Origin: Treponemataceae bacterium
GTDB taxonomy: Bacteria; Spirochaetota; Spirochaetia; Treponematales; Treponemataceae
Direction of reading: 5' to 3'
Length of the DNA: 60,197 nt
Assembly (NCBI GenBank): GCA_024680915.1
Contig: JAILBN010000070.1
Coordinates: 1-60,197, forward strand
Part shown: positions 46,317-58,868 of the stretch, piece by piece
How the letters are laid out: each line of letters opens with the position of its first letter
Numbering within the stretch: position 1 is the first letter of the stretch
Program-made: the position numbers and the translations under genes
The notes under the pieces: generated by a model
What the model was told of the DNA's origin: nothing
What the model saw: only the letters and a program-made list of their open reading frames with translations
Databases searched by the model: none

Positions 46317-49300
46317 ATGAGAATACGAAACTTTCTTTCAATATTGCTTGTCATAATGGCTGTACAGCTGATACATGCAAGGCAAAAGACAATAACCATC
46401 ACAGAATATGATACGGTAGCTGATCCTCAGCATGTTACGGGTAATATTTATAAGGCAGATGATGGGACAGAGATTGAATTAAAGCAAGGACAGGATCCCA
46501 AGGACCCGAAATCTTACAGAGTCGATGGGGAAGACCATGGTATGCCTACTGCATCAGTTTCTAACACATATACCATCATAATCGATATTCCAGACGAGAT
46601 ATACACAGAAGAAAATCAAAACTTTATAGAAAGTGAATTCAAGAATTATTGCAAACAGCAATACGAAGCCACAGGCCAAGGTATAATCGGCGCCGGTATG
46701 GTGATGAAGGAGACAGTAACCCAGAAATTCTTGAATATTATTCCTTATGAAAAAGAATACACAGCAATCACACTGGGAAAAATGGAAACAAAAGTATTAT
46801 CCCACTCCATAGACAAGATAAAGGCCTCAGAATCAGTACAGATAGGTGACCCGGTACTTATGACCAGCGGTCAGTACAGATATGACGAGACCGATGTGAT
46901 CGTCCAAAACAGGAATCTGATGCTTGAAATAGGGAGACATTATCAAAGTGAGGAAAACCTAGGCGAAAGTCTTGGTAGGAAATGGTTTTTCAGCCTGGAT
47001 ACAAGGATAATAAGAGGAAGCTCAATATCATCGGAAAAGACCTATGAGGAAGCGCTGAAGACACTGGCTACCCTTGAAGCTGAACTTGCCGGTTTAAGAG
47101 CCAATAAGCGAGAAGCAGAATTGGAATATAACAACAGCCTGTTAAATCTTTATAGTGATATAAAGACGACAAATAACGCCATTAACAGTCTAAGAACAAG
47201 TGGATATACCTCCTACAGTGAAGTCTCAGAATACATCAAGAATTTAAGCTCAAAGCTCACGACTCTGAATGAGCTGCTTACTGAAATACAGACAGACAAG
47301 GCAATATTTATGGATAGGATAAACACATACATCTATGAATATGAAACAAAGCTATCCGCAGAAAGAAAGACGCTGGCAAAGATCAAACAGATATATGATC
47401 ATTCCATATATAACAGGAATAAGAACTCCCGGGCAAAAGAAGGGAATGGCTTTGATGAATACATGGACATAGGTACAGATATCATAATTCTTTTCGATAC
47501 CTACGGACGAAAAAGCATCTATCAGCTTACCACTCCCCCCACATACAATGGAAATGAGGATCTTTTCCCCCAAGGGGCAGAAACTACAAGTCTCTCGGGA
47601 GGAAGTGACAAGCTTTCCATACTTGCGGACGGAAGTTATCAGCTCAAGAAAAGAGACGGAACTATCTGGCATTACGGCGATAAGGGAATGCTGGGAGAAA
47701 TTACGGACAGGTACGGAAACAGCATAAGCATATCTTATGAAGGAGAAAAGCCCATATCCATAAACATAGACGGAAAAAATGCTTACCGCTTGGAATGGTG
47801 CAACAACAGGCTATGCACAATTGTGAACGCCAGAGATAACTCAGACTACACTGAATATTCATATACAGACGGAAGATTATCATCAGTGAAAGACAATGAT
47901 GGGGATTCCATATCTTTCGGATATATGGATGCACCAGGGGATTACCTCACCACTATTCAAAAGCCCGACGGAAGTGAGGTACTTATAGACTACAGTCTTG
48001 AAAGAGAAGGCAGGAAACTTGCCAGCAGGACAAGGAATGAGGAGGGGTTCTGGGAAAACTTCTCATATAGTCAGAGTGGTAAGAAAGTTGAGCATACTTC
48101 TCAATCAGGAATAAAAACCATATATGAATATGATGATGACCAGAGACTTACAAAAGAGACAGACTGCGATGGAAGCACAAAAGAATACGAATATGATGAA
48201 GATGGAAATGTAATATCAGAAAAAGTAAATGGAAACATCACAACCTACGAATACAACAATTATGGGGAAAAGATAAGAGCCTGTTACAGCGACGGAAGTC
48301 AAGAAGCATGGCAATACGATGACTTCGGTTCCGTGATTTCATACAAGGACAGGGACGGAATACAGTACGAATACATACGGGACAACAAAGGAAATCTCTC
48401 CACTCTTAATGCAGGAGGAAGAACGCTTTACACATATGAACATGACGCGAAAGGTCAGATGAAATCGGCAACGATGCACCGGGCTGACGGCAGTACCGTA
48501 TCCCGGAGTTTTTCATACGATGAATACGGCAATCTAAAGGAAAGAAGGTCAGCCAGCACAGAAACAAACGGAGGCATAAGGGAAGAATGGACATACGATG
48601 GTCGTGGAAGGATCCTGTCATATACTATAAACGGCAATACTGAGGAAAGTTATTCCTATGAAGGTAGGAAAACGACAATAAGCTATAAGAACGGGCTGGT
48701 CTCCGAATATATCACTGATTCGAGGAAGGATTGCAGGTCAATTCTGGAGAAAGACAGCCTGACAGGAGAAATCAGGTTCACCCAGATAAGCTACGACAAA
48801 TGTCATCAGCCAGTCAAACGGACCATATCCCAAGGGAAAGGGGAAGCTCCAGTCATAACAGCCCTGTACAGATATCTAGCGGGAGGAGAACCGGAAGCAG
48901 AGCTCTTTACAGATGGAGAGAACTGCATAGTCACTCTTTATGAATACAAGGATCAACAGGGTAGACAAACTGATTATCTGACGAAAATCACCAGAATCCA
49001 ATGCGTGATGTCAGACTTACATAGGGCTGGAATGACTGAGGAAGAAGGCTTTTCCAGGACAAACCTAGTCGAACTGCAGGCCCATGCAGAAGACAGCTAT
49101 TCAGTTTCCTATTCATACTTGATCACACAAAACGGTACGGAAGTCATAGAGACAGCCTCAGACGGAACACAGACAAAAAAAGAATATGATGCCTGGGCAA
49201 GACTATACAGCATAACAAACACCGCGGGAATAAAGACCTTTAATGAGTACACAGCGGCAGGAAGACTAGAAAAACAAGAGTCTGAATATGGTGGATTCTG

Positions 49301-52300
49301 GCTGTACCAGTATGATATCACAGGAAATCTGAAGGAAACTGGCCCTGAAGGTGGAAAACATACATTTGTAACGATGAACCCGGATGAAACTCCATTCAGG
49401 GTAACAGACAGGAAAGGCCAAACGAGCGAATATGCCTATGACGATAGTGGAAATTTAATAAAATTGCGAACTCCAACAGGCTCCACCTTCTGGAAATATG
49501 ATTATAAAGGCAGGCTTATATCTGAAATTATAGGAGGAAATGGAGACACCGCAAGCGCAGAGGAATATAGTTCATACACATACAGCCCGAATGGCAGATC
49601 TGTCACAAGCAACAAAGGAGGCCTCTATTCCATGATATATACGCTCAATGCATGGGAAGAAACCACATCCATAACTGACGGAGAGGGTAATAAAGGAACC
49701 TTCGGCTATGATTGCGCGGGCAGGCTTATTTCTCAGAAAGACGCTTACGGGAACGAAACGAAGTATGAATATGATGTCCGAGGTTTAGTGACACGGATAA
49801 ACTACCCTGACGGTACATATCACCAATATAAATATGATGTTTTCGGCAACATAACAGAAGAAAGCTTCTGCGGGAAAAGTACGAGAGAATTACTCTATGA
49901 CAAAGGAGGACGCCTGAAGGAAGAAAAGGGAGAGCTTACTCCCCTGACCTCCTATGAATATGATGAAAGCGGACGATTAGCCGCCCTGTTTTCCGGTGGT
50001 GAAAGAAAAAACTCCTATGAATATGATGACAGAGGACGGGCTGTATCCATAAAAGACGGAAGAGGTAACATAAGCCTGTATGAATATGATGGATTCGGTA
50101 AACTGATCTCCGAGACTAACCGTTTGGGATTATCCCAAACATTCTCATACGATTATGAAGACCAGCTTACAGAAAAAAAAACTTTCTCAGGGAAAGTCGT
50201 CAAAACAGAAACATCCGCAGATGGACTCTGCAAAACTACTTATTACCCTGATGGAAGCGCAGACATTGTGACATACGATTCAGCGGGCCGGATAAAATCC
50301 ATAAGCAATGAGACAGGAAGGACCCGATATGAATATGACAAAGGTGGAATGCTTACACGACAGACAGACGAAAGCACAGGAGAAAGCATCATATTTATCT
50401 ACGATAAAGCAGGAAGAAGGAAACAGATAAAAGGAGCAGGAAGAGATATCTCCTTATCCTACGGAAAGAACGGGGAATTGATAGAAATCAGGGACAAGTC
50501 GATTTCTGCTGGTTTCCGGATAGAATATGACAGCATGATGAGGGAAATCCGAAGGACTGGGGATAACGGAGTAAGAACAGAAACCTTCTATAACGAGAAC
50601 GGTACTGTGGATATAATAACGACAAAAGATAAAAAAGGTATGCTCCTTGATGCGGAAGCTTACGTATATGACGAAAATGGCAGAAAAGAAGCACTTATCC
50701 GTGAGAATGGAGAAATCACTTTATTCAATTACGATGACCAAGGAAGGCTAATATCGGTTTTTCATCCTGACACAAAAGAGATACAGGACTATGAGAATCA
50801 AATTATCAAATCATACGGAATAGTGGAAAAGCGTTATAATTCCATAAAATCAATATATATTCAAAAAAATGTATATAATAAGCTTGCTGATTTACAAAAG
50901 CTATGTAACAATATCACCACAGTAATATCAGTATACAGGACTTTCAGGGTAGAAAGCTTCACATACGATGAGAACGGAAACCGTAAGGGCTGGTACATAG
51001 GAGGAGGCTTAATAGAATATTCATGCGATAAGGATGACAGGATTGTTTCTTGTCTTTCAGGTGGAAAAAGAGTAAAGGAATATTTATATGACGATGACGG
51101 AAACCTGACGTCATTTTCAAATCCATCTGTTTCAGGTCACAGAAGCTATTACACTTACGACGGAAGAGACCGTATGATTTCATCAATTTCCTATGGGGAA
51201 GACGGTATTGCAAAGGAGAAAAACTACGGATATGATGCGATCGGCAGGAGAGCGTATGTCTCATCGTCGGGAAAGGGGACGGTCCGTAGCACATATGATG
51301 GTTTTGGATTCGAAAGTCTTTCGGAAAACAGGACAAGTGAAATATATGACGTCAGCAGCTTCACATCGCAAAGCAAGTCGAAGGGAGCTTCCATTCCACA
51401 GGGAGAACGTTACCGGTATATAAAGGACGGAATACAAACTGACGGAAGGCAAAGGACGAAGAGAGAGGAAAGCATGACGGAGCAGACAGGCTTCAGGACA
51501 AGGAAGTCTCTATACATAAAAGGAATCCCTGCCGCGATAGAAACAGACGGTGAAAGCTGCTATCTGTCAAACGACACGGCAGGCAGCATCAGATGCATAA
51601 CAGATTCCTACGGCTCCTTTGCGGCATCAATACAGTATGACACCTTCGGCACCCCCGTCACGATTTCTGACAAGGGTATGCTTTCAGCAGGCGACAGCAC
51701 CACATACCAGGTGAACACCATGCACAAGGGCAGAAATACTCCGGACAAGCAATATACATCAGATTACGACCTCATCTCAGATACCCAGGAAAACAAAATA
51801 ATCGACACAGTTCTTTCCAAGGCAGCCTACGCAGGCAAGCCCTACGACCCAGTTACAGGCCTTTACGACTATGGCTTCCGTGACTACTCACCCGCCCTAG
51901 CCCGCTTCACCACTAAAGACCCAATAAGAGACGGCCTCAACTGGTACGCTTATTGCAACAATGATCCAGTGAATTTCGTGGATATGTGGGGGTTGAAATT
52001 TAAAAAGAGAACTTTTCATAATCTTATGGGAGACTCTGCTTGGAGGAATGAATTAACAGGAAATGGGGTTGATTTCTTAGCAGAAAAAGGGGAAATCGGT
52101 CAATTGAGAAACACCGGATGTGCAATAACGGAAATGAGTAATGTAATATCCTCTGCGACTGATATTATTCTAACTCCAAAAGATATTAATGATGATAAAT
52201 CTTATTTTGCAGCAGGTACAGATAATCTTTATATGCAAAAACTTGCTGAGGATAATGGACTAATATTCGATTATTGGACAAAAAATGTACAGGGAGATTT

Positions 52301-52577
52301 AGGGAAAAAGATTACAGAATTAAAAAACAATAAAAATGAATATCTGATTTCCGCACAAGTAAAATATAAAGAAGAAGATGAAAAAAGTCATTGGGTAGGT
52401 ATTACAGATGTAGAAACCAGAGAAGATGGGAAAACCTATGCAAAAATAGCCCCTACATCAATTTTAGACACAAGCAAATCTCATAGACCCAGAGATTCTT
52501 GGGTTTTAGATGAAAATGGGGATATGTGGATTGAAACCTCTGATATAAACAAAATATATACGTATAAGAATAAATAA
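46317..52577 (+). CDS. RHS/YD-repeat protein with C39-like peptidase C-terminus
   Basis: The 2086-residue protein follows a strong AAAGGAGG site and begins with a Sec-type signal (about residues 1-22). An RHS N-terminal region with VQIGDPVLMTSGQYRY and LGRKWFFSLD is split by a predicted coiled coil (about 241-365). Then come some 40 YD repeats (G-x-L-x-YEYDxxGR...) forming the cocoon shell. The conserved core ends GLYDYGFRDYSPALARFTTKDPIRDG...NFVDMWGL (to residue 1893). The variable tip from 1894 contains GQLRNTGCAITEMSN and SHWVGITDV, with Gln1929, Cys1935 and His2025 matching a papain/C39-like peptidase. It is probably an exported polymorphic toxin; no PAAR or type VI component is in the window. 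An AT-rich insert lies around residues 1481-1544. Confidence 0.88.
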   Translation: MRIRNFLSILLVIMAVQLIHARQKTITITEYDTVADPQHVTGNIYKADDGTEIELKQGQDPKDPKSYRVDGEDHGMPTASVSNTYTIIIDIPDEIYTEENQNFIESEFKNYCKQQYEATGQGIIGAGMVMKETVTQKFLNIIPYEKEYTAITLGKMETKVLSHSIDKIKASESVQIGDPVLMTSGQYRYDETDVIVQNRNLMLEIGRHYQSEENLGESLGRKWFFSLDTRIIRGSSISSEKTYEEALKTLATLEAELAGLRANKREAELEYNNSLLNLYSDIKTTNNAINSLRTSGYTSYSEVSEYIKNLSSKLTTLNELLTEIQTDKAIFMDRINTYIYEYETKLSAERKTLAKIKQIYDHSIYNRNKNSRAKEGNGFDEYMDIGTDIIILFDTYGRKSIYQLTTPPTYNGNEDLFPQGAETTSLSGGSDKLSILADGSYQLKKRDGTIWHYGDKGMLGEITDRYGNSISISYEGEKPISINIDGKNAYRLEWCNNRLCTIVNARDNSDYTEYSYTDGRLSSVKDNDGDSISFGYMDAPGDYLTTIQKPDGSEVLIDYSLEREGRKLASRTRNEEGFWENFSYSQSGKKVEHTSQSGIKTIYEYDDDQRLTKETDCDGSTKEYEYDEDGNVISEKVNGNITTYEYNNYGEKIRACYSDGSQEAWQYDDFGSVISYKDRDGIQYEYIRDNKGNLSTLNAGGRTLYTYEHDAKGQMKSATMHRADGSTVSRSFSYDEYGNLKERRSASTETNGGIREEWTYDGRGRILSYTINGNTEESYSYEGRKTTISYKNGLVSEYITDSRKDCRSILEKDSLTGEIRFTQISYDKCHQPVKRTISQGKGEAPVITALYRYLAGGEPEAELFTDGENCIVTLYEYKDQQGRQTDYLTKITRIQCVMSDLHRAGMTEEEGFSRTNLVELQAHAEDSYSVSYSYLITQNGTEVIETASDGTQTKKEYDAWARLYSITNTAGIKTFNEYTAAGRLEKQESEYGGFWLYQYDITGNLKETGPEGGKHTFVTMNPDETPFRVTDRKGQTSEYAYDDSGNLIKLRTPTGSTFWKYDYKGRLISEIIGGNGDTASAEEYSSYTYSPNGRSVTSNKGGLYSMIYTLNAWEETTSITDGEGNKGTFGYDCAGRLISQKDAYGNETKYEYDVRGLVTRINYPDGTYHQYKYDVFGNITEESFCGKSTRELLYDKGGRLKEEKGELTPLTSYEYDESGRLAALFSGGERKNSYEYDDRGRAVSIKDGRGNISLYEYDGFGKLISETNRLGLSQTFSYDYEDQLTEKKTFSGKVVKTETSADGLCKTTYYPDGSADIVTYDSAGRIKSISNETGRTRYEYDKGGMLTRQTDESTGESIIFIYDKAGRRKQIKGAGRDISLSYGKNGELIEIRDKSISAGFRIEYDSMMREIRRTGDNGVRTETFYNENGTVDIITTKDKKGMLLDAEAYVYDENGRKEALIRENGEITLFNYDDQGRLISVFHPDTKEIQDYENQIIKSYGIVEKRYNSIKSIYIQKNVYNKLADLQKLCNNITTVISVYRTFRVESFTYDENGNRKGWYIGGGLIEYSCDKDDRIVSCLSGGKRVKEYLYDDDGNLTSFSNPSVSGHRSYYTYDGRDRMISSISYGEDGIAKEKNYGYDAIGRRAYVSSSGKGTVRSTYDGFGFESLSENRTSEIYDVSSFTSQSKSKGASIPQGERYRYIKDGIQTDGRQRTKREESMTEQTGFRTRKSLYIKGIPAAIETDGESCYLSNDTAGSIRCITDSYGSFAASIQYDTFGTPVTISDKGMLSAGDSTTYQVNTMHKGRNTPDKQYTSDYDLISDTQENKIIDTVLSKAAYAGKPYDPVTGLYDYGFRDYSPALARFTTKDPIRDGLNWYAYCNNDPVNFVDMWGLKFKKRTFHNLMGDSAWRNELTGNGVDFLAEKGEIGQLRNTGCAITEMSNVISSATDIILTPKDINDDKSYFAAGTDNLYMQKLAEDNGLIFDYWTKNVQGDLGKKITELKNNKNEYLISAQVKYKEEDEKSHWVGITDVETREDGKTYAKIAPTSILDTSKSHRPRDSWVLDENGDMWIETSDINKIYTYKNK
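51788..51905 (+). repeat. 118-bp tract identical to the orphan RHS tip
   Basis: This stretch of the main RHS gene encodes the conserved core ENKIIDTVLSKAAYAGK through SPALAR. It is identical by eye, base for base, to 53544-53661. A further 35-bp identical tract covers DPVNFVDMWGL in both copies. These are the natural crossover sites for exchanging C-terminal tips. Confidence 0.85.
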
Positions 52578-52612
52578 GGAAGTAAGCATCCAAAACAAAG
52601 AAGGAGATATAT

Positions 52613-53437
52613 ATGAAAAAAGTATTGTTATTGGTTTTAACAGTCTATGGGCTGCTATTGACGGGCTGCAACAACAAAGCCATGGAGGAGCTCCAGAAGA
52701 AAAACACTGAACTGGAAAAGAAATACAGGACCCTCTCGTCCCAATCGAAGGAACTGTCTTCCTCCTATGAGGAATGCCTCAAGCAAATATCTGATCTTAC
52801 GGCAAGGTTGGATACTCTGGAGGAAAGGATTAATACGATAGAAAAAGAAAGACTTATAGCAAAAACAAGGAGAACTGCTATAAGGTACGATCATAAACAG
52901 ACTGTAAATTTCAAATACGGCGGTTATGACACTAAGATTTACAAAGAACCATTAGGAGAAGAAGTCATCTATACAGTCCAGACTGGAGATAAGATTCAAG
53001 TCACAGCTATATTGGTCTTTGAAACAACGAACGAAGGCTTCCTGGAGGTCAAGACACCAACTGAAGTCACAGGCTACATAGCCTTTTTGAATCCCTTCAA
53101 AGATGGAAGTTTTCTTCCTATATACACACTTACGGTGGATGGAAAAAACGTAACTATACTGAAGATGGAAAATGCATATCATGTTACGGAGACTTTTCAT
53201 TTGAGAACCCTACCATCCGACAACTCAGAAAGCATCCATGTAGTTACCCATAAAGAAGGCATGGATTATTATTGGACATCAGCTATAACTGAGGATTATG
53301 AATGGGTGAAGATAAAACTCAACGAATATGAAGGCTGGGTCAAAACTCAGGCACTGAGCGTGGATAAAGGCGGTCCTTTATTAAATACCCCAGAAGCAAT
53401 GATTGAATGGGTACTGATTGACGTGAACATGATCTAA
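52613..53437 (+). CDS. Coiled-coil/SH3-like lipoprotein, candidate immunity protein
   Basis: The 274-residue protein begins with a lipoprotein signal (KKVLLLVLTVYGLLLTGC, Cys19) after AAGGAGA. Residues 22-85 form a strong coiled coil (heptads such as ELQKKNTELEKKYRTLSSQ and LDTLEERINTIEKER). Two SH3-like beta domains follow, the second with FHLRTLPSDNSESIHVV and YEWVKIKLNEYEGWVKTQAL, the usual bacterial SH3 ending. It lies 35 bp after the RHS toxin stop codon, and a decayed second copy of its middle part lies at 57005-57355. The position fits an immunity protein that neutralises the peptidase tip in the periplasm; alternatively it is a cell-wall-binding accessory. The immunity role is inferred. 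Confidence 0.7.
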   Translation: MKKVLLLVLTVYGLLLTGCNNKAMEELQKKNTELEKKYRTLSSQSKELSSSYEECLKQISDLTARLDTLEERINTIEKERLIAKTRRTAIRYDHKQTVNFKYGGYDTKIYKEPLGEEVIYTVQTGDKIQVTAILVFETTNEGFLEVKTPTEVTGYIAFLNPFKDGSFLPIYTLTVDGKNVTILKMENAYHVTETFHLRTLPSDNSESIHVVTHKEGMDYYWTSAITEDYEWVKIKLNEYEGWVKTQALSVDKGGPLLNTPEAMIEWVLIDVNMI

Positions 53438-53448
53438 ATTAAGATATT

Positions 53449-54504
53449 ATGTTTTGTTACCCAAAAAAGAAAAAGTGTTTTCAAATGACTAATCATACAG
53501 GCTTCAGGTCTAGGAAGTCTCTATACACAAAGGGGAGTCCCGCGGAAAACAAAATAATCGACACAGTTCTTTCCAAGGCAGCCTACGCAGGCAAGCCCTA
53601 CGACCCAGTTACAGGCCTTTACGACTATGGCTTCCGTGACTACTCACCCGCCCTAGCCCGCGAGTTTTGCGAAGCAAAATCTCGGGAAGAAAAACAAAGT
53701 TTTTCGACCTTCACCACTAAAGACCCCGTCTGCGCAGAGCGCAGTTGTGATAGGAAATTTATTTTATATGTTCCCTCACGCGAACACCCAATAAGAGACG
53801 GCCTCAACTGGTACAATACATGGGCTGCGAGTTTTGCGAAGCAAAATCTCGTGGAGAAAAACAAAGTTTTTCGACCCGATCCAGTGAATTTCGTGGATAT
53901 GTGGGGGTTGAAGCAGGTTTTAGCAGAGGACATAGTTCAATTAAATAATAACCGTATAATAAGTAATAGTAATGGAAATCTAAAGAAACAGGCAAAGATA
54001 GAAATACAAAGAAGTCCTGATGACAACGGTAATAATGGCAAATACTACCAGTCTACTCTTTCCGTTGTGATTAATGATGATGTAAAACTTTTTTCAGCTC
54101 CTGTTCAATCTACGGCAGATCATCCAAACCTCAATAATGGCGAAGCAAAATATAGTGGAGGAACACTAGACGCGGGAATGTACGACGGTGTTTTCTTAAA
54201 CAAATCTGGAAGTTATATGAATGCTATTGATATAACAGGAAATGGGGTCGAAGAAAATGATGCCGTCCTTGTTCATCCTGATGTATTTACTGCAAAAGGA
54301 GAAACAGACAGTTATAGTATATATGGCAAACCATATAGTTTAGCTTGTCAGATATTAAAATTAGTTGACTTTAACAAAACTATAAACACTCTTTCAAATC
54401 TGGGTTTTAGAGGAGGAACTCCCAAAAATGAAAATGAATCATGGAGCAAGGGTGATCACATAAAAATAGAAATCAAAGATGCAACTGACAAAAAGGGGAA
54501 GTAA
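53449..54504 (+). CDS. Orphan RHS tip (core fragment plus alternative toxin domain)
   Basis: The 351-residue frame has no good ribosome-binding site. It starts with a few unrelated residues, continues with a fragment similar to the main RHS core (HTGFRSRKSLYTKG), skips about 250 bp, and resumes with the 118-bp tract identical to 51788-51905. The core then runs to NFVDMWGL but is interrupted by three palindromic, frame-preserving inserts. From about residue 155 a different tip follows (KQVLAEDIVQLNNN...). Its segments GGTLDAGMYDG, AVLVHPDVFTAKG and PYSLACQI recall the HP-N and S-x-GC pattern of L,D-transpeptidase-like domains. It is probably a silent cassette expressed only after recombination into the main gene. 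It ends two bases before the next gene. Confidence 0.65.
   Translation: MFCYPKKKKCFQMTNHTGFRSRKSLYTKGSPAENKIIDTVLSKAAYAGKPYDPVTGLYDYGFRDYSPALAREFCEAKSREEKQSFSTFTTKDPVCAERSCDRKFILYVPSREHPIRDGLNWYNTWAASFAKQNLVEKNKVFRPDPVNFVDMWGLKQVLAEDIVQLNNNRIISNSNGNLKKQAKIEIQRSPDDNGNNGKYYQSTLSVVINDDVKLFSAPVQSTADHPNLNNGEAKYSGGTLDAGMYDGVFLNKSGSYMNAIDITGNGVEENDAVLVHPDVFTAKGETDSYSIYGKPYSLACQILKLVDFNKTINTLSNLGFRGGTPKNENESWSKGDHIKIEIKDATDKKGK
53544..53661 (+). repeat. 118-bp identical copy of the RHS core in the orphan tip
   Basis: This is identical to 51788-51905 of the main RHS gene. The identity ends exactly where the first palindromic insert begins, which suggests that the insert entered after, or at, the duplication. 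Confidence 0.85.
53662..53709. repeat. Palindromic in-frame insert A
   Basis: This 48-bp insert in the RHS core is absent from the main RHS gene. It consists of two hairpins: CGAGTTTTGC-GAA-GCAAAATCTCG (including the base before) and GAAAAAC-AAA-GTTTTTC. It keeps the reading frame, adding 16 residues (EFCEAKSREEKQSFST). Confidence 0.8.
53725..53787. repeat. Palindromic in-frame insert B
   Basis: This 63-bp insert lies between the codons for KD and PIRDG of the RHS core and adds 21 residues. It contains the hairpin CTGCGC-AGA-GCGCAG (53730-53744) and an AT-rich rest. Its sequence is unrelated to inserts A and C. Confidence 0.7.
53829..53876. repeat. Palindromic in-frame insert C
   Basis: This second copy of insert A matches at 46 of 48 positions. 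It is read in a different frame (SFAKQNLVEKNKVF) from copy A, yet the RHS core frame is intact on both sides. Here it replaces the core residues AYCNN, and flanking bases have also changed. Confidence 0.8.
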
Positions 54505-54506
54505 TC

Positions 54507-55307
54507 ATGAAACGACCAATGTTTGTATTTATTTTATTGTTTTTGGCATCATCTGTATTTTGTCAAAATTTCACTGAAAGCGGAGAAATTCTGACTTTAG
54601 ACGGACTTTCATTTGCATCAGATATACTCAATGAAATTGTTTTCGAAAACGGGGAAATTTCAATCATCAACTATGAGGGATATTTTGAAGAAAAGAGACA
54701 TATCATTTTAAATGACAAATACGATATCGAGAAAAAAGGCAGCCTCGTTTTTCTTAACCTTAAAAATGAAAGTAAATCTTTTCTATGCCTTGCGAGCGAT
54801 GAAGTACTGTTGCTATATGACGAAAAGAATGAGTCCCCTTTCTTTTTCGGATTCTCCTCAATGAGAGGATTGGAATTAATAAGCCAGCCAGATAAGATAA
54901 CCGCATCATCAGAACTGCTTGAGAATGACTATGTTTATTCCGCCAGTAATCTTGGCAACTTTAATCTTTCACAGCCTTGGGTGGAAGGAGTTCCGGGGAA
55001 CGGTGAAGGTGAGTATATTACATTATCTGGAAATTGCACCTACATATACTTATTCAACGGATATATTTCGTATTCAAAGCCGTATCTGTACGAACGGAAT
55101 TCTCGAATCAAGAAAATAAAGATAACCACGAATACAGAAAATGGAGAAAAGGAATTTATTTTCAACTTATTTGACACTCCCAATCCTCAGAAAATAAATC
55201 TTGGGGAACGTGTTACAGATGATATAAAACTGGAAATCCTAGAAGTTTATCCAGGCACAAAATATCAGGATACCTGTTTGAATGCACTATTGTTTAAAAT
55301 ATTTTAA
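54507..55307 (+). CDS. Exported NADase-type glycan-binding-domain-like protein, candidate immunity protein 1
   Basis: The 266-residue protein starts two bases after the orphan tip's stop codon, with GGGGAAG as its ribosome-binding site. It has a signal peptide (MKRPMFVFILLFLASSVFC) that may be lipoprotein-like at Cys19. The N-terminal half (about 25-130) is beta-rich and unrecognised. The C-terminal half contains TASSELLENDYVYSASNLG, PWVEGVPGNGEGEYITL, FNGYISYSKPYLYERNSRIKKIKI and TKYQDTCLNALLF. This order of motifs matches the discoidin-like domain known from NADase-associated glycan-binding modules. Translational coupling to the tip gene suggests it is the matching immunity protein. That role is inferred; the domain call is moderately sure. 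Confidence 0.65.
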   Translation: MKRPMFVFILLFLASSVFCQNFTESGEILTLDGLSFASDILNEIVFENGEISIINYEGYFEEKRHIILNDKYDIEKKGSLVFLNLKNESKSFLCLASDEVLLLYDEKNESPFFFGFSSMRGLELISQPDKITASSELLENDYVYSASNLGNFNLSQPWVEGVPGNGEGEYITLSGNCTYIYLFNGYISYSKPYLYERNSRIKKIKITTNTENGEKEFIFNLFDTPNPQKINLGERVTDDIKLEILEVYPGTKYQDTCLNALLFKIF

Positions 55308-55348
55308 TGCAAGTCATATTATTTGCTTTTGGTTCGTGATTAGAGCCT

Positions 55349-55648
55349 ATGTATTGGAGCTTGATGCCGTCAAACAGTACTCCCCTAGCAAATAATGGAG
55401 AAGCTTATTCTACGGATAACTTGAAAAAAATCGCTAAAGAGGAAGTTTTATATGAAGAGGGAAACATTAATAATATAGATGCAGCATATGGCTCTTGGAT
55501 GGAGAGCAGAAATTCTGATTCACGACAAATAATTCAAACAGGAACTCATGTTGTAAATCAAACGTATGCTCCTTATCAAAATACACGAGAACCTGCTTCG
55601 CAGGGAAAAATAAACTGGAATTATGTTATAGGGGAAGTATGGAAAAGA
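55349..55648 (+). pseudogene. Remnant of another RHS tip fused in frame to the next gene
   Basis: The 300 bp before the second paralogue's likely start are open in the same frame (MYWSLMPSNSTPLANNGEAYSTDNLKKIA...NYVIGEVWKR). The polar, non-repetitive sequence resembles the end of an RHS tip, but it has no ribosome-binding site, no core motif and no complete domain. It contains a small CCTGC-TTC-GCAGG hairpin. I read it as a decayed toxin cassette whose end has fused with the following immunity gene. Confidence 0.4.
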
Positions 55649-56407
55649 ATGATAAAAAATCGAAGTAGCTTTATAATCTTTGTTTTTAGTCTGATATCGA
55701 CGTTGGCTATAGCTCAGGAAAAATATGTTAATATGTTTTTAGAGATAGATTTCTTTCCGTCTTTAATTTCCTTCACAGAATTGAATCCAGATAACGGAGA
55801 ATTATCAACAAGCACATATTCAGGCATATATAGAGAAGGGAATCCCTTATCCACTTTTTGCTGTGAAAATGGAGAGAATTTATTTGTTTTAAAATCGTCA
55901 GGTATACTGATTATTTACAAAGACGATAAAAAATATCCTGTCTGGGGGGTCAATCAAAAAAAATATAGAAGTGCAGAAACCTTCGTATTTGATGATGAAA
56001 TTCTTTCCGATTCTTTTTTAGTAGAACCGAATTTCACGTATTCTGCATCTAATTTAGGCAATATGTTCCTGGATTCACCATGGTGTGAAGGGGAGAAAGA
56101 TGATGGGAAAGGTGTCAAAATCGATATGGGTCTTTGTGGTACAGGTTTCATAATTTCAAATGGCTTTGTTTCGAAAAAACAGTACCTATATGAATATAAC
56201 AACCGCATAAAGACCATCAAACTAACCGACTCAAATGATTCTGATTTCATGAAAATAATTGAATTACAAGACAAAGCAGAACCTCAGTATGTTTTTATTG
56301 ATAATATTCCAGGAAGGCATATTAATATTGAAATACTTGAAACATATTCAGGTTCTAAATGGAATGACACTTGTATCAATTTCATCATAAAGTTATTTAA
56401 CAGATAA
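55649..56407 (+). CDS. Exported NADase-type glycan-binding-domain-like protein, candidate immunity protein 2
   Basis: Starting at the ATG at 55649 (GGAAAAG upstream), the 252-residue protein has a signal peptide MIKNRSSFIIFVFSLISTLAIAQ and the same two-part architecture as its upstream paralogue. In the C-terminal half SDSFLVEPNFTYSASNLGNM, SPWCEGEKDDGKGVKIDM, ISNGFVSKKQYLYEYNNRIKTIKL and SGSKWNDTCINFII align motif by motif with the 54507-55307 protein. The N-terminal halves are much more divergent. The longer frame from 55349 includes a likely toxin remnant and would bury the signal peptide. Confidence 0.6.
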   Translation: MIKNRSSFIIFVFSLISTLAIAQEKYVNMFLEIDFFPSLISFTELNPDNGELSTSTYSGIYREGNPLSTFCCENGENLFVLKSSGILIIYKDDKKYPVWGVNQKKYRSAETFVFDDEILSDSFLVEPNFTYSASNLGNMFLDSPWCEGEKDDGKGVKIDMGLCGTGFIISNGFVSKKQYLYEYNNRIKTIKLTDSNDSDFMKIIELQDKAEPQYVFIDNIPGRHINIEILETYSGSKWNDTCINFIIKLFNR

Positions 56408-56450
56408 CTAACTTAGTATATAGGTTGGAAATGATACATATAGATAACAA

Positions 56451-57032
56451 ATGAGGCAGCTATGGACGATAAAAGCTTCTAACATTCGAAACAGCACACA
56501 ATATTCGGCTACTTCCGAATTGATTGAAAACAACTTCACGTATGAAGTAGAAAATCTTGGGGAAACAAATCTAATTCCATGGGTTGAAAATGCACCAGAT
56601 TCTGGAATTGGACAAACAATAACAATGGAATGGCCGGTCTGGAAAGATAGAGACGGATCTCAAGGTGGAATTGGAGCATTAATCTTTTTTAATGGTTTTA
56701 TCTCTTTTGACAAACCATACCTTTATGAAGCAAATAACAGGATTAAAGAAATAAGACTATATTCAAAAGATGGTTCATATGATTTCCAAACAAAACTAGA
56801 TGATACTCCGAATCCCCAAATCGTTTTTTTACCTGTACCAACATCAGAAATGTGTGTAGAGATAAAAAGTGTGTATAAAGAAAATAAATGGAATGACACT
56901 TGTATTAATTCAATATTCGGATTAGAAAACTGGCAAGCAAGGAGTCTTTATGAAGATATGCTCAAAAAAGGAGATAAGATACTTGGTTACAAACCAAACT
57001 CTATTACGGCGGTTATGACACGAAAATCTTAA
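56451..57032 (+). pseudogene. Truncated third paralogue of the candidate immunity family
   Basis: This frame retains only the discoidin-like half: TSELIENNFTYEVENLGE, PWVENAPDSGIGQTITMEW, FFNGFISFDKPYLYEANNRIKEIRL, KWNDTCINS. It lacks the N-terminal half and the signal peptide, and no ribosome-binding site precedes the ATG. Its last ten codons read out of frame into a remnant of the SH3 lipoprotein gene. It is most likely a dead fragment. Confidence 0.55.
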
Positions 57033-57355
57033 AAGAGCCTTTAGGAGAAGAAGTCATCTATACAGTCCAGACCGGAGATAAGATTCAAGTCACAGCTATA
57101 TTAGTCTATGAAACAGCTAATGAATGCTTCATCGAGGTTAAGACACCCTCTGACATTAAAGGCTACATAGACATTTCGCTAAATCCCTTCAAAGATGGCA
57201 GTTTCCTGCCTATATACACACTTACGGTAGATGGAAAAAACGTAACAATACTGAAGATGGAAAGTTCATATCATGTTACGGAGAGTTTTCATTTGAGAAC
57301 CCTACCATCCGACAACTTCCCGCCAGGGAAGCTGTCTTTAACATTCAATTCTTGA
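57005..57355 (+). pseudogene. Remnant of the coiled-coil/SH3 lipoprotein gene
   Basis: From the bases for YGGYDTKI to those for LRTLPSDN (about 57005-57318) this stretch repeats the middle of the lipoprotein gene at 52613-53437 (about 52915-53220), with scattered substitutions. It has neither start, lipobox nor coiled coil, and after the homologous part it reads unrelated sequence to a stop at 57353-57355. It marks the right border of the cassette region. Confidence 0.75.
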
Positions 57356-57542
57356 TAAATAATCAGCAGTAATTTATATTTAGAAAAGTAACAGCAGCTG
57401 TCAGCTGTTTGCGGGACATAGCCGCATTAAAATCTTTTACCCCAGCCTACTGAATTTAAAGAAAGAACTTCACAGTCTCCATGCCCGTGGAGGAAGTTTC
57501 TCCCCATTGATTTTTTCATACTTATCTTCATAATAGTGCCAT
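57356..57542. other. Intergenic region, border of the RHS accessory block
   Basis: These 187 bp contain a CAGCTG-T-CAGCTG palindrome (near 57390) and a GC-richer stretch (57450-57510). The latter faintly resembles the 3' end of IS200/IS605-type elements when read leftwards. No transposase frame exists, so this is not annotated as an element. No ribosome-binding site is seen before the next gene. Confidence 0.3.
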
Positions 57543-58868
57543 ATGAAACTTAAAGGCTTTTATTCGTCTTTGTTTACGATTGCAATTCCAATTTCTCTTC
57601 AGGCCCTTTTGCAGAATTTTGTAAACATGCTCGATACCGTTATGATCGGGCGGCTTGGTAGTGTTGAGATTGCTGCCGTGGGTCTTGGAAATCAGATATT
57701 CTTTATCCTCAATATGATTCTTTTTGGGATTACTTCCGGTGGTGGTGTTTTTATTGCCCAGTTCTGGGGTAAAAAGGATATAGGCGGAATCAGAAGGTCT
57801 TTAGGTTTGATGACTTTGATTGCCACTTTTGTTTCCGTGGTTTTCACTCTACTCGGACTTTTTATTCCCAATCAGCTGATAAGAATTTATTCTCCTGATC
57901 CTGAGGTTGTACGCGTTGGTGGAGAATATCTTCGCATTGCCTGTCTGAGTTATATTCCAACCGCAATAAGTTTTTCCATTACTCTTGCCATGCGTAGTAC
58001 CGAACGGGTAAAGCTTCCCCTTATTTGTACATCTGTTTCACTTCTTACAAATGCCGGTGCAAATTATCTTTTGATTTTCACTGCCGGAATGGGAGTTAAG
58101 GGAGCTGCAATTGCAACAGTTTTCTCGCGCCTTGTTGAACTTGCCATTCTTTTGAGCTGGTCTTATTCTCACGGTTATGAAATCTGTGGAAAGCTTCGCG
58201 AACTGCTGGGCTTTGACTGGTCTTTTGTTGTTAAATATTTGAAGATTGCCTTCCCTGTCATTATCAATGAAACCTTCTGGGGTCTTGGAACCTCTGTCTA
58301 TAACGGAATATATGCACATGCGGGAACTGATTCCTTTACCGCCTATAGCATTACCGGAACAATCAGCCAGCTTACCTGGGTATTCTGTATGGGCTTCGGA
58401 AACGGTATCGGCGTTCTGATTGGAAAGAGAATCGGCGAAAAGAAGCTGGACGAAGCGAAAGCCTATGCACTGCGCTCCATGTGGTTTATGCCTTTAGTGG
58501 GAGCTCTTGTCGGCGTACTTCTGTTGCCGCTTTCTAAACTCCTTCCCTTCCTCTTTAACGTTGAGCCGGAAATCATCAAAATGGCAACTCAGATTCTTAT
58601 GATTTTGATTCTGCTTTATCCATTTAATTCCTTCTGTATGGACTGGGTTGTGGGTGTATGCAGGGCTGGTGGAGATACTGTATTTTCTGCCCTTGGCGAA
58701 CTGATTGTTTTGTGGGGTGTTGCAATTCCCCTTGGATATATTGCAGCCTTTGTTCTCCATCTTCCCGCCCCGATGATTTTCTTATTCCTATCAAGCGAAT
58801 CGATTGTAAAGGCAATCGTGGGTGCAATAAGAGTTTTAAGCGGAAAGTGGCTGCACGAAGTTACCTGA
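57543..58868 (+). CDS. MATE-family efflux transporter
   Basis: The 441-residue membrane protein has the MATE pattern of two six-helix halves: LFTIAIPISLQALLQNFVNMLDTVMIGRLGSVEIAAVGLGNQIFF at the N-terminus, then NYLLIFTAGMGVKGAAIATVFSRLVE, and a second half starting near residue 225 (LKIAFPVIINETFWGLG). NorM/DinF-like transporters export cationic drugs or metabolites in exchange for sodium ions or protons. Its length is normal. The substrate is unknown. It stands alone rightwards at the edge of the RHS block. Confidence 0.92.
   Translation: MKLKGFYSSLFTIAIPISLQALLQNFVNMLDTVMIGRLGSVEIAAVGLGNQIFFILNMILFGITSGGGVFIAQFWGKKDIGGIRRSLGLMTLIATFVSVVFTLLGLFIPNQLIRIYSPDPEVVRVGGEYLRIACLSYIPTAISFSITLAMRSTERVKLPLICTSVSLLTNAGANYLLIFTAGMGVKGAAIATVFSRLVELAILLSWSYSHGYEICGKLRELLGFDWSFVVKYLKIAFPVIINETFWGLGTSVYNGIYAHAGTDSFTAYSITGTISQLTWVFCMGFGNGIGVLIGKRIGEKKLDEAKAYALRSMWFMPLVGALVGVLLLPLSKLLPFLFNVEPEIIKMATQILMILILLYPFNSFCMDWVVGVCRAGGDTVFSALGELIVLWGVAIPLGYIAAFVLHLPAPMIFLFLSSESIVKAIVGAIRVLSGKWLHEVT

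Follow-up and report, generated by a model that had tools for sequence, protein, structure and literature searches.

In-frame palindromic inserts in the shared core segment of an orphan Rhs tip module from a Treponemataceae bacterium

The 60,197-nucleotide stretch analysed here (the window), from a Treponemataceae bacterium (GCA_024680915.1, contig JAILBN010000070.1), carries a full-length Rhs gene followed by an orphan Rhs fragment that has core sequence in common with it and ends in a different tip, all features lying on the + strand. Judged by its sequence, the locus fits a known kind, the orphan Rhs module of a tip with its putative immunity gene, and the unusual part is a set of palindromic inserts that interrupt the orphan core. 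Orphan tips are thought to form a reservoir for toxin switching; to our knowledge, the evolution of their unused core DNA has been little studied. The most probable explanation is, in our opinion, that a displaced or captured 3' end of an Rhs gene is stored here as an alternative tip, which could be joined to the main gene by recombination, and that in-frame palindromes have split its core. The assembly, the single genome of its species, comprises 134 contigs and is probably metagenomic.

Main and orphan cores

The features of the two Rhs frames are as follows (pieces of common sequence were delimited by sequence alignment).

46317-52577, + strand: main RHS gene, an open reading frame of 2086 aa with a signal-like N-terminus, DUF6531, YD/RHS repeats, Rhs-associated core and variable tip (PF05593, PF20148; TIGR03696)
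51999-52574, + strand: main tip, without Pfam or NCBIfam family
53449-54504, + strand: orphan RHS fragment, an open frame of 351 aa without ribosome-binding site
53485-53543, + strand: older upstream-core piece, 80% identical, matching 51474-51532
53544-53661, + strand: 118 bp identical to 51788-51905
53661-53708, + strand: insert 1, an in-frame element of 48 bp with two hairpins, whose start is ambiguous by one base in either direction
53727-53789, + strand: insert 2, an in-frame element of 63 bp from the second palindromic family, placed between the DP and IRDG residues of the core
53828-53875, + strand: insert 3, an in-frame copy (48 bp) of the element seen as insert 1
53878-53912, + strand: 35 bp identical to 51963-51997, the last homology before the tip
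53914-54501, + strand: orphan tip, with a His and an SxxC motif that are invariant in seven aligned relatives

An earlier note, made from the sequence of this window, had described a main RHS gene and an orphan tip with 118 bp of perfect identity. Both are indeed in frame in their own reading frames, the orphan lying downstream of a full-length rhs gene with which it shares core sequence, and the identity extends over 118 of 118 bases. The tips diverge after the WGLK codons, in agreement with the description of the orphan tip as a different one. Absence of a ribosome-binding site from the orphan was also confirmed: judged by eye, Shine-Dalgarno-like sequences are present before the main gene, the lipoprotein gene that follows it and the gene after the orphan, and none is found before the orphan ATG at 53449 or the next one at 53485. 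By this inspection, the orphan has no translation initiation signals of its own.

The identity had been presented as flanked by divergent sequence, which does not hold on the 3' side, where the match resumes in blocks of 18, 27 and 35 nt without a mismatch. Altogether, 195 of 195 non-overlapping core bases are identical between main gene and orphan, the alignment being broken by the three inserts; 15 nt of main sequence are replaced in the orphan beside insert 3. On the 5' side of the orphan, 255 bp of the main core (51533-51787) are missing, and beyond this gap lies a 59-nt piece that matches at 47 of 59 positions (51474-51532 against 53485-53543). Within-genome best core identities in the family range from 75 to 97.5% over 120 nt where a partner exists (38 cores, both inserted orphans left out), and the 100% identity of the present pair is an outlier. 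Because this identity is exceptional and the adjacent upstream piece is only 80% identical, recent homogenisation or re-duplication is likely, and the tip-proximal stretch would therefore have arisen, or been homogenised, later than that piece. The recent gene conversion or duplication proposed earlier can thus be retained as likely for the 118-bp stretch.

The insert lengths of 48, 63 and 48 bp are all multiples of three, and the reading frame is kept throughout. Inserts 1 and 3 differ at 2 of 50 nt over the repeat (96% identity) and form a pair of neighbouring hairpins, the first constant (TTTTGC, loop, GCAAAA) and the second variable, with folding z-scores of about -2.3 (insert 1) and -3.4 (insert 3). 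Insert 2 is a different palindrome, of which an 85% relative was found in a genome of the same genus (G001). The hairpin of inserts 1 and 3, allowing up to three mismatches, did not occur in 100 shuffles of the window, which excludes chance; no Rfam RNA match to the element was obtained in 51400-57600 up to an E value of 1. TIGR03696 matches the main gene with 71.3 bits over positions 13-76 of 76, a full Rhs-associated core, and the orphan with 28.5 bits, below the cut-off, over positions 13-44 of 76, the match ending at insert 1. The three inserts disrupt this domain in the orphan.

With up to three mismatches, the genome holds three copies of the hairpin, two of them in this orphan and one on another contig (C22). 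The latter stands directly before a stretch that resembles an Rhs core motif by eye, in a remnant without a long Rhs frame; it was counted as a seventh Rhs insert, not in frame. The 22-residue peptide read there gave no NCBIfam family match.

Inserts and palindromic elements in related genomes

Two other genomes contain orphans with inserts of these kinds. In G010, which belongs to another genus and is assembled as a single 3.06-Mb contig, an orphan downstream of a main gene bears two-hairpin inserts of 51 and 48 bp, with folding z-scores of about -4.6 and -2.8, at the positions of inserts 1 and 3, to the same nucleotide within alignment freedom. Positions were compared between these two orphans only; if sites were free over 195 bases and uniformly distributed, two such coincidences would arise by chance about 2 times in 10,000. 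The core of the G010 orphan is likewise broken (TIGR03696, 32.7 bits, positions 16-42 of 76). In G001, an orphan of 362 aa has an in-frame relative of insert 2 further upstream in the core, about 63 bp long by eye from protein comparison, and its nearest counterpart in the own genome, on contig C7, does not have this element. That contig (L051, G000:C7) presents a second orphan RHS frame of the own genome, beside a frame that reads like a tyrosine recombinase, with a core about 88% like that of G001:C75. All six Rhs inserts in the three genomes are multiples of three and keep the frame.

The extent of such inserts was surveyed with a core profile covering the last ~60 codons of the core. At E 1e-5 it gave more than a hundred matching sites, spread over 74 of the 245 family genomes; at E 1e-10, the genomes with matches numbered 38 of 390 in the order and 49 of 274 in the family. 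Going by the length of the match, the present orphan and that of G010 are the only ones with inserts, and no main-size frame has any; within the span of this profile, no further inserted core was found in the 390 order and 274 family genomes. The G001 insert lies upstream of that span and was found by DNA comparison. One further candidate, G482:C82, seemed to have a longer core and was discarded, no insert being present.

The 245 family genomes also served for surveys of the element itself and of both tips. A stricter element pattern was found in 48 of them, the reversed control giving none. Among 105 distinct copies that were read (one from outside the family), Rhs core motifs were near only the two in this window, the other 103 not being in Rhs cores. 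The second hairpin follows in 71 of 104 copies, versus 227 of 2080 random windows. Only 18 of 71 family elements have a length that is a multiple of three, and when 79 family elements were placed in simulation at every position of the main core, the frame was kept in 25% of cases and left open in 18%. In a public genome collection, the exact hairpin was present in 20 stretches, mostly Treponema assemblies, several of them from goat and deer; the same search returned a separate Ensifer repeat and one Bacillota assembly. The Ensifer matches (L194, L197, L199-L201) have the same 24-nt hairpin, but their constant flanks are unrelated to those of the Treponema elements, and they were rejected as the same element. 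Two pattern matches (L055, L137) were also dismissed as copies, since they read as ordinary gene sequence, presumably of a hisS-like gene.

Some copies outside Rhs genes do lie in coding sequence. In an AAA-ATPase-like gene (L230, G219:C52:2-985), the element is in frame inside the conserved YWF-TGTPTF motif, and three homologues read straight through without it. Another two-hairpin element is in frame in a dapF-like gene (L052 near 926, G012:C46); we take the gene to be dapF and rely on our assumption of its uninterrupted form. In G015, copies of the two-hairpin element spaced about 70 bp apart form arrays near contig ends (L016 C17, L011 C2, L018 C6); these arrays were not accepted as in-frame inserts because they are outside long frames (according to the open reading frame list for one array). 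The elements are short palindromes repeated through genomes, with intragenic copies in frame, as are repetitive extragenic palindromic sequences (REPs) and Rickettsia palindromic elements (RPEs). On these two properties, the inserts appear to work like REP/RPE palindromic repeats.

Tips, partner genes and neighbourhood

The genes that accompany the two Rhs frames are listed below.

52613-53437, + strand: SH3-domain lipoprotein (open reading frame, PF08239), putative immunity gene of the main tip from its position
54507-55307, + strand: secreted PF25302 (NADase_transloc) protein, putative immunity gene of the orphan tip (PF25302 match)
55349-56407, + strand: second PF25302 gene (open reading frame, PF25302), its signal-like start probably at 55649
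56451-57032, + strand: third PF25302 frame (open reading frame, PF25302), without signal sequence
57000-57317, + strand: remnant of an SH3 lipoprotein gene, 85% and 94% identical to 52911-53225

The part of the second PF25302 frame that precedes its signal-like start (55349-55648) may be the end of another displaced tip.

Neither tip matches a known family in Pfam or NCBIfam. We take the main tip to be C39-like, by eye, from its Cys and His motifs. The main tip has relatives in 19 of the 245 genomes; their frames measure either 1791-2234 aa or 194-469 aa, and one record, in G250, is split. The orphan tip has relatives in 15 of 245, the own genome included, some on frames of 200-700 aa and others on large ones (G129, 1945 aa; G095 and G116, 1255-1257 aa). 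Each tip family is thus attached to main-size frames in some species and to orphan-size frames in others, and both therefore change between main and orphan settings in the course of evolution.

In the own locus and in 4 of 4 relatives examined, the gene immediately after the orphan-tip family belongs to PF25302. In a genome of the same genus (G002; L040:7807-8931, G002:C24), this tip family is part of a short protein whose N-terminus is signal-like and whose core is complete (TIGR03696, 71.2 bits, the whole core), again followed by PF25302. Seven aligned orphan-type tips have an invariant His and an SxxC motif, a combination that, on our assumption, resembles L,D-transpeptidases. Assignment to that class was rejected: there was no Pfam match, and the best hit of a PDB profile search was an unconvincing Endonuclease V chain (E 1.4). 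Single-sequence AlphaFold2 models of the tips, with mean predicted local distance difference test (pLDDT) scores of 29 (orphan tip) and 50, were too poor and were left unused for fold searches.

Main-plus-orphan loci are common in relatives, with up to eight cores in G103. There (G103:C1:1-38000; L170, L171), eight RHS cores are packed into about 34 kb, with many short tips and cores up to 97.5% identical to one another.

Possible tip exchange, alternative explanations and known systems

According to the explanation favoured here, the orphan module downstream of the intact main Rhs gene would be a displaced or captured 3' end and a store of an alternative tip, presumably an antibacterial effector whose immunity protein would be the PF25302 product. 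Recent gene conversion or re-duplication would have brought the orphan core into line with that of the main gene, and three short palindromes of the REP/RPE sort would have entered the orphan core in frame, splitting the Rhs-associated core domain. The orphan tip could join the main gene by homologous recombination, and tip switching in this organism is possible. Since the frame survived the inserts, the data suggest that the fragment is being translated, or was until recently, for instance while fused to a main gene. We presume that the Rhs-associated core region here carries the Rhs self-cleavage site; the present orphan probably could not make a normally processed Rhs protein.

These inserts bear on where an exchange could take place. 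The 118 bp had been regarded as a ready crossover site; they are not the obvious productive one, because the orphan core after them is broken by three in-frame inserts, which a crossover there would transfer. Recombination within 51788-51905/53544-53661 would yield a fusion that stays open and has the three inserts within its Rhs-associated core. A clean swap with an intact core would need a crossover in 51963-51997 = 53878-53912, these 35 bp being the sole unbroken homology adjoining the tip. If it took place as a simple deletion, either crossover would cost the locus its main tip and the SH3 lipoprotein gene. One could go further and regard the inserts as a recurrent, position-specific lock, which leaves the stored tip unprocessed if it is expressed and makes the short clean stretch by the tip the sole productive exchange site; we regard this as very improbable.

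Several observations weigh against a stored and exchangeable tip. The case for switching rests here on one assembled genome of the species, and the own genome has few copies of the element (three), so that its mobility is deduced from relatives. With a 255-bp core deletion and no start signals, the orphan may simply be dying, and a graveyard would suit the SH3 and PF25302 remnants nearby; in four other genomes (G143, G103, G069, G087), the orphan tip is present in copies with internal stop codons. The earlier note had held that a fixed arrangement with diverged cores in many relatives, together with an absence of junction reads, would argue against switching. Half of this applies: cores are indeed diverged in most relatives, as expected of fixed, slowly decaying arrays, but the tips differ from species to species.

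Taken to its end, this line of thought makes the orphan a dead relic: the main 3' end would have been partly duplicated in recent times, and the copy, now a pseudogene outside exchange, would gather palindromes because no selection acts against them. The missing ribosome-binding site, the core deletion, the broken domain, the degraded neighbours and the decayed orphans of relatives are all what such a relic would display. A relic is nevertheless unlikely in our opinion: all six Rhs inserts in three genomes are in frame, as against the simulated 25% in frame and 18% open, and the tip retains every residue invariant in its seven relatives as well as its partner gene. It is also doubtful, if slightly less so, that the elements prefer landing sites in Rhs core DNA, so that descent or selection would not account for their positions, an explanation compatible with the one favoured here. 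Such a preference would account for the fact that both G010 inserts coincide in position with two of the three present ones, to the nucleotide if one base of ambiguity in the alignment is allowed. Inserts 1 and 3 are nearly identical to each other and the G010 pair differ in hairpin B; the C22 copy directly before an Rhs-core-like stretch points the same way, though its peptide had no NCBIfam match. No common target motif is visible by eye, however, more than a hundred other cores, every matched main gene among them, contain no insert, and 103 of the 105 copies read are outside Rhs cores. Lastly, a metagenome assembler may have joined repeat copies inside the orphan, as repeats are error-prone and the assembly is fragmented and probably metagenomic. 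Exact in-frame inserts of 48, 63 and 48 bp between error-free core blocks, and the same arrangement in the single contig of G010, make this artefact the least credible of the explanations considered.

Spare tips are a known arrangement, and in-frame palindromic inserts in the joining segment are an unusual variant of it. Our search found no literature describing in-frame palindromes for Treponema or for Rhs orphans, subscription journals being mostly outside its reach. In the present case, a core apparently homogenised to 100% bears three palindromic inserts, positions of which recur in another genus. It offers a concrete, testable case of palindromic repeats entering spirochaete protein-coding DNA and of inserts limiting where a tip swap works.

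The closest counterpart is the orphan rhs-CT/rhsI pair STM0291/STM0292 of Salmonella LT2, likewise a main gene with an orphan; according to the available part of that report, the two have 522 bp at 95% identity in common and recombine, upon which the orphan toxin is expressed from the main gene (PMC3967940). Unlike the orphan rhs-CT/rhsI modules of Enterobacteriaceae (see also PMC3150448), the present one is spirochaetal, its homology is shorter (195 bp, 100%) and broken by three palindromic inserts, and its tip and immunity families differ; recombination was demonstrated experimentally there and is a possibility here. Standalone toxin cassettes of polymorphic toxin systems are a related arrangement, and core inserts are unmentioned in the accessible portion of their description (PMC3482391); the two further PF25302 frames and the SH3 remnant downstream would fit earlier replacements as in those systems. 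As for the inserts, RPEs and GTAG/CGTC-tagged REPs are described, in the available sections of the respective reports, as short and mostly intergenic, some being in frame inside conserved genes; different REPs are found at about the same recB site in two Xanthomonas species, and tagged REPs occur in many phyla, with CGTC repeats reported in Spirochaetes (PMC2229807, PMC3733652, PMC10969869). The present elements differ from these in having two adjacent hairpins over about 48 bp, the first constant and the second variable, in belonging to Treponema-type genomes and in being sited in Rhs orphan cores.
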